Source of the DNA: Nitrosophilus kaiyonis
Lineage (GTDB): Bacteria; Campylobacterota; Campylobacteria; Campylobacterales; Nitratiruptoraceae
Direction: 5' to 3'
Assembly (NCBI RefSeq): GCF_027943725.1
Contig: NZ_AP025696.1
Location: forward strand, 1,093,501 to 1,157,500
DNA: 64,000 nt
Under the pieces are notes generated by a model. The model saw only the letters and a list, made by a program, of their open reading frames with translations, ran no database searches and had not been told where the DNA came from. Shown here piece by piece: positions 2,727 to 62,133 of this stretch. Numbering within the stretch: the stretch's first letter is position 1; the number at the start of each line of letters is the position of its first letter. The translations under genes and the position numbers were made by a program.

Positions 2727-2770
2727 TTTATCCTCATGTTATCAATTTTGGGGTATTATAGCATATAAAA

Positions 2771-2877
2771 TGTTGAGTTAAGTAAGGTGAATGAGAAAGT
2801 TAGAAAGTAGTGAAGTGGAATAGCAGATAAGCTGTGAAGAAGCTAATTCCAAATTCCCAATTCCTAACTACTAATTA
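2771..2877 (+). repeat. Degenerate heptad-repeat leader element (copy A)
   Basis: Between metF and serB lies a purine-rich stretch (about 2771-2840) followed by a CTAATTC/CCAATTC-type stretch (2842-2877). The second part reads as 7-base units. A 15-base run ATTCCCAATTCCTAA (2853-2867) is identical to 10108-10122 in copy B. AAGTTAGAAAGTAG (starting near 2797) recurs in copy D on the other strand. It ends a few bases before the serB ribosome-binding site. Confidence 0.75.
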
Positions 2878-2891
2878 TAAAAAGGAGTTAA

Positions 2892-3512
2892 ATGAAACTT
2901 TGTGTATTTGATTTTGATTCTACTTTAATGGATGGAGAGACGATAGATTTTTTAGCAGGAGAGCTTGGTTTAAAAGAAAAGGTTGCTGAAATTACTGAGA
3001 TGGCAATGAGGGGGGAGCTTGATTTTTTTGAGAGTTTAATAACAAGAGTAAAGCTTCTTGAAGGCCTTGAGGTAGAAAAAGTTGATAAAATTTGTAAAAA
3101 TCTCCCTTTTATGCCAGGAGCAAAAGAGACAATTGATGAGCTTAAAAAAATGGGATATAAAGTTGTTGTTTTTAGTGGAGGTTTTAGAAATGCAACAACT
3201 CATGCAAAAAAAGTATTGGGATTAGATGCAGATTTTTCAAATATCCTTCACTCTAAAAATGGAAAACTTACTGGACTTGTTGGTGGAGATATGATGTTTG
3301 ATTTTTCCAAAGGTGATATGTTACGGAGGCTTCAAGAACTCTTGGGTATAAAAAAAGATGATACAATAGCTGTTGGTGATGGAGCAAATGATAGAAGTAT
3401 GTTTGCTTTTGCAAAAACAAAAATAGCATTTTGTGCAAAAGATATACTAAAAAAAGAGGCAAATGTTATAATAGAAAAGAAAGATTTAAAAGAGGTATTA
3501 AATTACATTTAA
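2892..3512 (+). CDS. serB: Phosphoserine phosphatase
   Basis: A HAD-superfamily phosphatase of 206 residues that makes serine from phosphoserine, the last step of serine synthesis. Motif I is DFDST with nucleophile Asp7 and acid Asp9. Motif II is SGG (95-97), the lysine of motif III is Lys140, and motif IV is GDGAND (162-167). A helical cap lies between residues 15 and 75. The start is preceded by AAAAGGAG at 2880-2887. The gene stands alone behind repeat element A, so any regulation through that leader would act on serine supply. Confidence 0.92.
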   Translation: MKLCVFDFDSTLMDGETIDFLAGELGLKEKVAEITEMAMRGELDFFESLITRVKLLEGLEVEKVDKICKNLPFMPGAKETIDELKKMGYKVVVFSGGFRNATTHAKKVLGLDADFSNILHSKNGKLTGLVGGDMMFDFSKGDMLRRLQELLGIKKDDTIAVGDGANDRSMFAFAKTKIAFCAKDILKKEANVIIEKKDLKEVLNYI

Positions 3513-9994: not shown

Positions 9995-10164
9995 GTTAGG
10001 AGACAAGGTGATAAGGTGGCAAGCAGTGAAGCTGAGAAGAGGAATAGGGCATAGCGGGATAGTGGAAAAGGTGTTCAGGAAGAAGGTTGAAAATAGAAGG
10101 AAAGCCAATTCCCAATTCCTAATTACCAATATCCAATGTCCAATGACTAATGACTAATTATTAA
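9995..10164 (+). repeat. Heptad-repeat leader element (copy B), longest copy
   Basis: A purine-rich arm (9995-10103) with AGG recurring in a loose 7-base rhythm is followed by eight successive 7-base units of CCAATTC/CTAATGA type (10105-10160). The next gene's ribosome-binding site AAAAGGA follows directly. GGAATAGGGCATAGCGGGAT (10041-10060) recurs with one inserted G at 62018-62038. GCCAATTCCCAATT (10104-10117) is identical to 62091-62104. The element has no coding pattern consistent with its neighbours. Confidence 0.85.
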
Positions 10165-10176
10165 AAGGATATCAAA

Positions 10177-10986
10177 ATGAGAGAAATTTTTAAAAAAAAG
10201 CATGAATTATGGTTGAAGGTTTTATTTTCTGCATTTGCGCTTCCAAAAGGTGAAATAAGTGATGTTTTACTAGATTTTGCAGATATTGAATTTAGACATA
10301 TGAAATGGATTGCAAAAGATATAGTTAAAAACAGAGGTGATTTTAATTTTGATAGAGATAAAATAGATATTAAAGCAAACAATTTTTATGAGTTAATAGA
10401 TAAACTTATTGATTCGCTTTTAGCTATAGAGATTTCTTACAAAGATAGCGCTTTATTTTATAGAATAAAAAATGATGAGAGATATATGATAGAAAAATTA
10501 AGAGAATTTAAAAAATTTGAAGATTTTGAAATAACTGCATTTAATAAAAATATGAAATATAAAAATTTAGATAAAAAATCTCTTGATGCTTTGATTTTGT
10601 TTTTATTTGAGGAGATATATAAAGAGTATGAATTAATTTTAGTCTATTTTTACTCATCAATTCATACAGATAATGTATCTCTTTACTCTATATATGAAGA
10701 TTTAATTTATGAGTCAAAATTTCATTTAAAAAGTTTTGCTTTTCTGCAAGCAAAACTTGGACTTTTGTCTCTTCCAAGAGAGGTAATGGAAGAGGTGTAT
10801 AAATTTGAAGATTTGAAAAAGTTTTTATTGGATGGTATTGAGGAAGAAAAGGGTGCTAAAGAACAGTGCAGGGCATTAGCTGCTGCAGTTAAAGACAAAG
10901 ATTTATCAAGTTTTTTTGAATTTATAAATAATCAAGAAGATTATCATATAAAATTAATGGAAGAGGCTTTAAAAATTATAGATTAA
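10177..10986 (+). CDS. Probable double ferritin-like (di-iron) protein
   Basis: A 269-residue helical protein with no signal peptide. It carries three carboxylate-histidine pairs typical of ferritin-like or rubrerythrin-like helices: E38-x-x-H41, E179-x-x-x-H183 and E254-x-x-H257. Further helix glutamates lie at about 85 and 222-224. The first half (about 1-110) and second half (about 135-269) look like two related helical units. Role is inferred: iron or oxygen/peroxide handling in the cytoplasm. The exact family is not recognised. The gene sits behind repeat element B, and its terminator lies within the convergent neighbour's 3' end. Confidence 0.6.
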   Translation: MREIFKKKHELWLKVLFSAFALPKGEISDVLLDFADIEFRHMKWIAKDIVKNRGDFNFDRDKIDIKANNFYELIDKLIDSLLAIEISYKDSALFYRIKNDERYMIEKLREFKKFEDFEITAFNKNMKYKNLDKKSLDALILFLFEEIYKEYELILVYFYSSIHTDNVSLYSIYEDLIYESKFHLKSFAFLQAKLGLLSLPREVMEEVYKFEDLKKFLLDGIEEEKGAKEQCRALAAAVKDKDLSSFFEFINNQEDYHIKLMEEALKIID

Positions 10987-23398: not shown

Positions 23399-23701
23399 TT
23401 ATTTGAGTTTTGAAATATATTCAGCTACTGCATCAATATCTTCATCGCTATATGAAGCTACTTGGCCTTTCATAAGACCACCCATTCCATATACATTTCT
23501 TGAGCCAGCTTTATATCCTTTTAATGCTTCGACAACTTTTGCTTTATCCCATCCTCCAATTGGAGCTGATTTCCCAAGAGCTTTTTTCTCACCTTTTACG
23601 CCATGACATCCTGCACATTTTTTATATAAAGCTGCACCATCTGCCGCCATTAAACTAACTGCTGTTGCAGCTGCCAATCCTAATAATGCTAATTTTTTCA
23701 T
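23399..23701 (-). CDS. Small periplasmic cytochrome c (cytochrome c553-like)
   Basis: A 100-residue cytochrome: signal peptide (about 1-19, ending MAA), then GAALYKKCAGCHG with heme motif CAGCH and a distal Met in MGGLMKGQ. It is typical of the small soluble c553 electron carriers of epsilonproteobacteria. The open frame extends to 23809, but the extra 36 codons come from repeat element D. The true start is ATG at 23701, with AGGAGG a few bases upstream. It is a monocistronic gene between a terminator and element D. Confidence 0.9.
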   Translation of the reverse strand: MKKLALLGLAAATAVSLMAADGAALYKKCAGCHGVKGEKKALGKSAPIGGWDKAKVVEALKGYKAGSRNVYGMGGLMKGQVASYSDEDIDAVAEYISKLK

Positions 23702-23861
23702 AATTTCCTCCTTTATTCGTGATTCGTAATTCGTTATTCGTGAATGGCAAGTATTAAGTTCTAATTTTAATACTATTGGTAAATCCTTTACCGCTTCACT
23801 GTTTATCACCTATTTCACTATGTTCCTATTCTACTTTCTAACTTAATCTATTAACTAAACA
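23702..23861 (-). repeat. Heptad-repeat leader element (copy D)
   Basis: Read on the minus strand, a purine-rich arm begins with AAGTTAGAAAGTAG, identical to part of copy A. The arm runs through GTGAAATAGGTGATAAACAG-like sequence. The second arm ends in four successive 7-base units of the ACGAATA/ACGAATT type (23706-23735). The ribosome-binding site AGGAGG of the cytochrome gene follows. It thus has the same order and orientation toward its gene as copies A, B and C, but with a different heptad. Confidence 0.75.
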
Positions 23862-24185
23862 TTAACAGCTTGGAACATTTCCACTATCACTTGCATATTC
23901 GTAACAAAAATCAAATAGATGTTTAACCCATTTATCTTTAATAGATTCTGGTTTTACCTTAGGACAAATTTTATGAACCTCTTCTTTAAATTTACCAGAT
24001 TCATATATCTCTTCCCACTCATCTTGCGTATGTTTAGCAGCAAATTTTGCTCCAGTAAATCCACAAGCTTTCTTTAGCTTTTTTTGATAAAGCTTTTGTC
24101 CTTTTGCAACATCTGCAAATGCTGCTGTGCTAACAAAGCTAAGTCCTAACATTGTTGTAAATATTACTGCGATAACCTTTTTCAT
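23862..24185 (-). CDS. Exported cysteine-containing protein in the cytochrome cluster
   Basis: A 107-residue protein with a clear signal peptide (about 1-24, ending AFA). The N-terminus of the mature part (VAKGQKLYQKKLKKACG) looks like the entry of a cytochrome c, but no CxxCH motif is present. Four cysteines remain (ACGF, ICPK, FCYE, SC at the C-terminus). They could form disulfides or bind a metal. It lies between two cytochrome genes on the same strand. A degenerated cytochrome-like protein or a heme-free relative is the best guess. Function is unknown. Confidence 0.7.
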   Translation of the reverse strand: MKKVIAVIFTTMLGLSFVSTAAFADVAKGQKLYQKKLKKACGFTGAKFAAKHTQDEWEEIYESGKFKEEVHKICPKVKPESIKDKWVKHLFDFCYEYASDSGNVPSC

Positions 24186-38515: not shown

Positions 38516-38610
38516 AGCTATCCTTTAAATCTTTTAGCATTTTTAATTATATCCAAATCTCAGCACTTCTTAATTACATTTTTTGTAAAATAAAGTTGCT
38601 TTTTATAGTT

Positions 38611-38740
38611 AAAAAGGTTGGGTAGTTGAGTTGATGAGTGGGTAAGTGGGTAAAAAACTTAATAATTTTAACCACTCAACAATTCAATTTTTTTAACCAC
38701 TCAACCACTCAACTTTTTTAACCACTCAACTTTTTTAAAA
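38611..38740 (+). repeat. Hairpin-forming leader element before ileS (copy F)
   Basis: The left arm (38626-38645) and right arm (38668-38687) are 20-base near-perfect complements (17 Watson-Crick pairs). ACCACTCAAC occurs four times (starting at 38671, 38696, 38704 and 38721), partly as a tandem in T-rich spacers. The stretch ends right before the ileS ribosome-binding site AAAAGGA. It has the same order (purine arm, then pyrimidine arm) as other leader elements but a different core. Confidence 0.75.
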
Positions 38741-38748
38741 GGAAATAT

Positions 38749-47039: not shown

Positions 47040-47080
47040 AAAAGCAGCTTGAATTAGAAAGTAAAAAAATAGTTATTGGT

Positions 47081-47160
47081 ATATTGGTTATTAGTTATTG
47101 GTAAAAATTAAATATATGGTGTCTATATATACCAATTACCAATACACCAATAACCAATAT
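47081..47160 (+). repeat. Long hairpin of TTATTGG/CCAATAA repeats upstream of metX (copy E)
   Basis: ATATTGGTTATT (47081-47092) is a perfect 12-bp match with AATAACCAATAT (47149-47160). A further TATTGGTAA/TTACCAATA pairing lies inside. The arms are made of approximately 7-base units. A small internal palindrome (TATATA-rich) sits in the loop. It lies between metY and the metX promoter and may end the metY message. Confidence 0.8.
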
Positions 47161-47192
47161 GCCATTTTATCTCTTTATTACTACCTCTAAGG

Positions 47193-47198
47193 TATAAT
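47193..47198 (+). promoter_or_regulatory. -10 box of metX
   Basis: TATAAT at 47193-47198 with preceding GG, 35 bases before the TTG start. No -35 consensus. The start is expected near 47205, downstream of repeat element E, so that element would not be part of the metX leader if this promoter is used. Confidence 0.5.
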
Positions 47199-47232
47199 TA
47201 GTCCAAATTTATAATATTTATAGAGGTTATCA

Positions 47233-62012: not shown

Positions 62013-62119
62013 TTAGTGGAATAGGGGCATAGCGGGATAGCAGGATGGTTGAATAGGTGGTAAGGGGATAAGAAGGTAAAGTGTAAAGTGGCCAATTCCC
62101 AATTACTAATTCCTAATTT
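62013..62119 (+). repeat. Heptad-repeat leader element (copy C)
   Basis: A purine-rich arm (62013-62090) is followed by four 7-base units of CCAATTC/CTAATTC type (62092-62119). The arm has GTAAAGT twice in tandem near 62076-62089. A 23-base segment (62018-62040) differs from 10041-10062 only by one inserted G. The ribosome-binding site of the thioredoxin-like gene (AAAGGAAG) follows. It begins directly after the helicase stop. Confidence 0.85.
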
Positions 62120-62133
62120 GAGAAAGGAAGCAA

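Follow-up and report, generated by a model that had tools for sequence, protein, structure and literature searches.

The gap upstream of a cytochrome c gene of Nitrosophilus kaiyonis raises the question of whether a repeat element that appears to face the next gene on either strand is in fact oriented with respect to that gene. This gap (copy D) lies in the window, that is, the whole 64,000-nucleotide stretch that was analysed (positions 1,093,501–1,157,500, with 28% G+C, of a genome of 1.77 Mb in one contig). The closest relatives by protein comparison are mainly MAGs of Campylobacterales. Read on the minus strand, copy D runs from a purine-rich stretch through CACGAATAACGAATTACGAATCACGAAT and AAGGAGGA to the ATG, as the earlier note had described it. 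Its four heptads read CGAATNA on that strand, its purine arm is not complementary to its heptad arm (fold z −0.32), and orthologue comparison showed that the SD at this junction is also present in relatives. The plus-strand copies A, B and C share the layout of copy D (Table 1), and copy A is flanked by an MTHFR gene (−) and a HAD phosphatase gene (+). As in the earlier note, no regulon was seen, here among the domains of ten neighbouring genes; the description of the gene at 10177–10986 as ferritin-like was not confirmed, the gene having no Pfam match.

Table 1. Repeat elements of the window and their parts (positions in the window; SD, ribosome-binding site).
Feature	Position	Strand	Description
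Copy D	23702–23861	−	whole 160-bp gap between two minus-strand genes
Copy D, flanking genes	23862–24185; 23399–23701	− (both)	upstream gene; downstream cytochrome c gene
Copy D, heptad arm	23715–23743	−	4 units, CACGAATAACGAATTACGAATCACGAAT type
Copy D, SD	23707–23714	−	AAGGAGGA, precedes ATG at 23701
Copy D, purine arm	23784–23845	−	octad-like, stop-codon side
Copy A, gap	2727–2891	.	divergent; gene 1809–2726 on −, gene 2892–3512 on +
Copy A, parts	~2776–2842; 2843–2876; 2882–2887		purine arm; heptad arm; SD
Copy B, gap	9995–10176	+	tandem; purine octad arm to ~10104; heptad arm 10105–10160
Copy C, gap	62013–62133	+	tandem; purine octad arm ~62016–62091; heptad arm 62092–62118
Relative of other subtype	47040–47232	+	long hairpin 47070–47170, ATTGGTTATTAG heptads and their complement
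Relative of other subtype	38516–38748	+	divergent gap; AACCACTC octads with complementary arm

The order of purines followed by pyrimidines is unchanged by reverse complementation, and it therefore holds no strand information. Since the order is its own reverse complement, a copy on the minus strand is bound to read alike, and copy A, located between divergent genes, thus runs from purine to pyrimidine toward both of them. The appearance of a common direction is mostly a mirror layout that looks alike on both strands, and one subtype truly points with the genes. What looks like one orientation on both strands, however striking, can accordingly be an artefact of symmetry, and telling the two arms apart is the test for real polarity.

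The heptad repeat elements themselves are real and far exceed chance. The pattern CBAATNNCBAATNNCBAAT matched 195 and 167 times on the two strands of the genome (362 matches), whereas the reversed control pattern matched 0 and 3 times; array starts numbered 49 and 53 per strand, as against 0 and 1 in the control. We took 65 stretches around array starts and called genes with a simple purpose-made codon-score caller rather than a published one. The 129 arrays of at least three units tabulated in this way account for 282 of the 362 three-unit matches in the genome. Only one of them was inside a predicted ORF, and after removal of this array and of four without a flanking gene, 124 could be classified. 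Array starts are unevenly distributed along the chromosome, being dense at ~0.3–1.07 Mb and sparser elsewhere. Within the phylum the array-start pattern is patchy: it matched in 42 of 397 genomes, with no match in the genus mate G386.

When the 124 arrays were placed relative to the flanking genes, the C-rich strand was found to read toward the nearer gap edge in 114 (p = 1.7e-23). This held in tandem (99/108), divergent (10/11) and convergent (5/5) gaps. The tandem-gap arrays comprised 64 sense on the start side, 35 antisense on the stop side, 7 sense on the stop side and 2 antisense on the start side, indicating that the type of edge, start or stop codon, is irrelevant to placement and that layout decides. 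The earlier note had proposed that every copy has one orientation to its downstream gene, and had named copies in either orientation and copies between convergent genes as outcomes that would speak against it; both were found. Tandem gaps hold 71 sense and 37 antisense arrays, and a further 11 arrays are divergent and 5 convergent, copy A itself being in a divergent gap. What stands of the proposal is the layout seen in copies A–D and the polarity of certain arms described below.

The placement rule was also found outside this genome. By the same analysis, outward arrays made up 21 of 26 in the sister species G053 (after 4 arrays inside an ORF and 4 at an edge had been dropped), 19 of 22 among the plus-strand matches listed for G074, a member of another family with 56% G+C (2 at an edge dropped), and 9 of 10 among the matches listed for G058, from a third family. 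Orientation in tandem gaps was 9 sense and 11 antisense in G053, where AATTCC-type arrays were 5 sense and 8 antisense; among the matches listed it was 7 sense and 8 antisense in G074 and 0 sense and 6 antisense in G058. Orientation relative to the gene is therefore not general. For the most part, a consistent orientation gives no support to selection: gaps between divergent or convergent genes have the same order, and so do three other genomes.

A polar subtype emerged where the arms could be distinguished. The purine arm of octads, with units such as GATAAGGT, GTGAAGCG and GGATAGCG, was sense in 30 of the 32 tandem gaps having one and antisense in 2 (p = 2.5e-7). It is found toward the stop codon (median relative position, 0.32), with the heptad arm toward the start codon, and in 28 of the 29 gaps in which both were called the octad and AATTCC heptad arms were on one strand. 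AATTCC/AATTTC-type arrays in tandem gaps were likewise mainly sense (38, with 5 antisense), and four further octad gaps were divergent or convergent. The polarity of the octad–heptad composite with transcription is thus real in this genome and is seen only where the arms are distinguishable. The identical motif list found octad runs in only 2 of 27 stretches of G053. Two candidate causes of the polarity were considered. In the 31 sense octad gaps, compared as found and with the element inverted, the 60 nt past the upstream stop codon closed all three frames in 25 and still did so in 22 after inversion, and frame closing was rejected. Content of SD-like sequence was also left without support; 4-mers of this kind 15–60 nt upstream of starts numbered 7 as found and 0 inverted.

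Many octad arms contain an embedded structured repeat of ~180 nt, R (for example, L166:2080–2260 on the minus strand and G000:C1:1577723–1577903), which ran in the sense direction in 15 of 16 tandem gaps. An alignment of 17 copies showed compensatory changes in 16 of 40 predicted pairs, and 94.7% of its cells were paired, versus 32–48% when it was slid. A check against Rfam covering five R-holding loci gave no match. A covariance model of R found it in 13 of 397 genomes of the phylum, most strongly in the host's own family. In the relatives G013, G029, G031 and G374 (L317–L320, L330, L331), neighbouring copies are ~172 nt apart; ORFs near R in three of these relatives are Cas1- and/or Cas2-like by eye, and in G029 the copies are downstream of a tsf-like gene. 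A second repeat, P (~205 nt), contains inverted repeats, has ends resembling CTCTGAAAAATTA and sits inside heptad arms, at L187:2626–2838 and five other loci; further copies in the genome are 85–98% identical. In G074 (L293, L298, L299, L300), near-perfect runs of the heptads GTAGTGG, GTGAGCA, CCAATGA and CCAATGC flank a recurring core of ~100 bp. This core holds GAGAATCATTCTC or a close variant, which we take to resemble a Fur box.

The gaps that carry arrays are predominantly tandem (84/98, compared with 59/89 of the other gaps of at least 40 bp; Fisher p = 0.002) and depleted among divergent ones (9/98 compared with 22/89; p = 0.0055), the array-free baseline being local, from the same 65 stretches chosen around arrays. 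Sense arrays end at a median of 29 nt ahead of the start codon, and an SD-like 4-mer follows 45 of the 48 that lie within 40 nt of it. Orthologous junctions in relatives were mostly short: in 8 of 11 gaps, which span 121–362 nt here, at least one relative had a near-empty junction, with no more than 40 nt between the matched gene ends. The distance was 11 nt for copy B and 10 nt for copy C in G013; for copy D it was 35 nt in G386, 39 nt in G013 and 77 nt in G057. Elsewhere it was 12–23 nt in four genomes (L166g), 7 nt in G013 (L187b), 10–17 nt in three genomes (L187c) and 29 nt in G013 (L187d), and the genes overlapped in two relatives at L166e; at L187a, L166f and the 47-kb gap the orthologous gaps were longer in the relatives examined. 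As orthologous gaps are mostly 7–40 nt, the elements enlarge compact operon junctions. In G053, a repeat element of other sequence, as judged from the sequences, occupied 5 of 8 comparable gaps (L187b, L187c, L187d and those of copies C and D, 211 nt at copy C), and a sixth case, L166e, is arguable. Repeat elements of different sequence in the same gaps may reflect a requirement for a spacer there. The suggestion that the element is part of the message is plausible in view of the tandem preference, the SD-like 4-mers and the short gaps in relatives.

Folding was computed for 77 of the 84 tandem gaps (60–420 bp). A z below −2 was obtained in 46 of these, with 34/48 in the non-octad and 12/29 in the octad class. 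Strong folds included the elements at 47 kb (z −6.15) and 38 kb (z −3.51). Copies A, B and C folded no better than chance (z −0.74, −0.82 and +1.58), nor did copy D, and a hairpin for these four copies is unsupported. Matches at Rfam gathering thresholds in the window were confined to tRNAs, and a low-threshold search yielded a single chance-level snoRNA match. A canonical G3+ quadruplex motif was found on neither strand of any of the 98 gaps, and 53 of them had a two-tetrad motif alone. That these are G-quadruplex elements, as proposed for the GGGAATC and GGGGA(C/T)T repeats, is accordingly very improbable, even though the placement rule and the preference for tandem genes correspond to those given in the portions of Rehm et al. 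2015 (PMC4692102) consulted. The rule here extends to heptad units incapable of forming a canonical quadruplex, an argument against quadruplex formation as its cause.

As a whole, these data led us to favor the view, with a probability of about two in three, that the elements were inserted at operon junctions as repeat-borne spacers and are transcribed, and that they are not a shared regulatory leader. Each is a degenerate block of short tandem repeats whose units measure 7 and 8 nt; on either strand its first half is rich in G and its second in C, and it fills the space between the upstream stop codon and the next ribosome-binding site. The constant purine-to-pyrimidine order is built into the element, so that gene direction is not recorded in it. 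Such blocks may arise and change through repeat expansion, loss and insertion, and would survive where no ORF, SD or promoter is broken, that is, mainly between co-directional genes in a compact genome. In more than half of the folded tandem gaps, chiefly those of the complementary heptad subtype, a strong intercistronic hairpin can form. The data show how abundant the elements are, their placement rule and bias of gene context, the near-empty orthologous gaps, the hairpin-forming subset and the polarity of the composite; we infer that the elements are transcribed, that they are neutral or nearly so, and how they expand.

An mRNA leader maintained by selection on translation, in which the heptad arm ahead of the SD, rich in C and A and poor in G, would keep the start region unstructured or bind a translation factor, is quite unlikely. 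It would fit the distance of sense arrays from start codons, the SD-like 4-mers that follow them and the 30:2 ratio of the octad composite with the genes. The same arrays, however, adjoin stop codons on the opposite strand (35 antisense stop-side as against 64 sense start-side), convergent gaps also carry them, neither the arrays as a whole nor those of AATTCC type favor sense in G053, and where these genes adjoin in relatives, the junctions mostly lack a copy. These near-empty sites would equally be expected of an oriented mobile element in which octad arm, optional R core, octads and heptad arm move as a unit with transcription-biased insertion. The fixed relative strand of the octad and AATTCC-heptad arms, the 15:1 ratio of R and the repeats flanking a recurring core in G074 also point to it. 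Its standing is reduced to that of an unlikely explanation by ends that vary with the gap, by heptad arms that reach the SD at any gap length and by a non-systematic inspection that identified neither target duplication nor transposase. The choice between selection and oriented insertion offered by the earlier note keeps some room through the composite, though not through the purine–pyrimidine order, which is itself palindromic. The 30:2 ratio, together with R being sense in nearly all tandem gaps, is unlike the prediction of purely neutral, non-oriented insertion. We regard it as doubtful, if conceivable, that the composite is an oriented module spreading through operon junctions in a transcription-dependent orientation, often carrying the structured R, and hence a mobile or regulatory element of Campylobacterota that is linked to RNA and so far unnamed. 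Spacer insertion at operon junctions remains the preferred reading for the elements as a class.

Several known repeat families resemble these elements in part. The REP/BIME sequences of enterobacteria are transcribed intercistronic palindromes that could act as mRNA hairpins; of the tandem gaps folded here, 46 of 77 may form a comparable stem-loop, but copies A–D show no hairpin, and the units are degenerate heptads with no conserved palindromic unit. Cyanobacterial STRR heptanucleotide repeats, reportedly described by Mazel and colleagues in 1990, are likewise tandem heptads dispersed in intergenic DNA; going by that description, they are set apart by unit sequence and host group. Judged by title and abstract, in mostly non-subscription literature, we met no treatment of the present elements in Nitratiruptor or in Epsilonproteobacteria/Campylobacterota, and likewise no earlier description of the polar octad–heptad composite in the Campylobacterota literature.

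According to the parts of MacGregor 2015 (PMC4679880) used here, TAACTGA direct repeats are found in marine Beggiatoaceae, Cyanobacteria and Bacteroidetes, and S1, Csp or CsrA were suggested to bind them. They share with our elements an intergenic heptad unit near start codons, no functional pattern among the genes and a patchy, strain-specific spread; they commonly stand in place of the SD and lie mostly in forward orientation, whereas here an SD normally follows and both orientations are present. The closest parallel is with the G-rich heptads GGGAATC and GGGGA(C/T)T, which, in the portions of Rehm et al. 2015 (PMC4692102) considered, are abundant in the intergenic DNA of Xanthomonas and Nostoc, prefer aligned ORFs and are rare between divergent ones. 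Their G-rich strand is antisense in the 50 bp preceding an ORF and sense in the first 50 bp past a stop codon, convergent pairs make inverted repeats, and most copies are reported to be transcribed. The 7-nt tandem intergenic unit is thus common to both systems, and the placement rule had already been described there; the arrays of N. kaiyonis are C-rich sense near starts and G-rich sense near stops in 99 of 108 tandem cases and show the same tandem preference and divergent depletion. Unlike those heptads, as far as that source describes them, the units here are of a highly degenerate CYAATNN type in a 28% G+C Campylobacterota host and are coupled to an 8-nt purine arm that is itself polar. 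The present elements are placed like the quadruplex heptad class and stand outside it, as none of their 98 gaps holds a G3+ motif.
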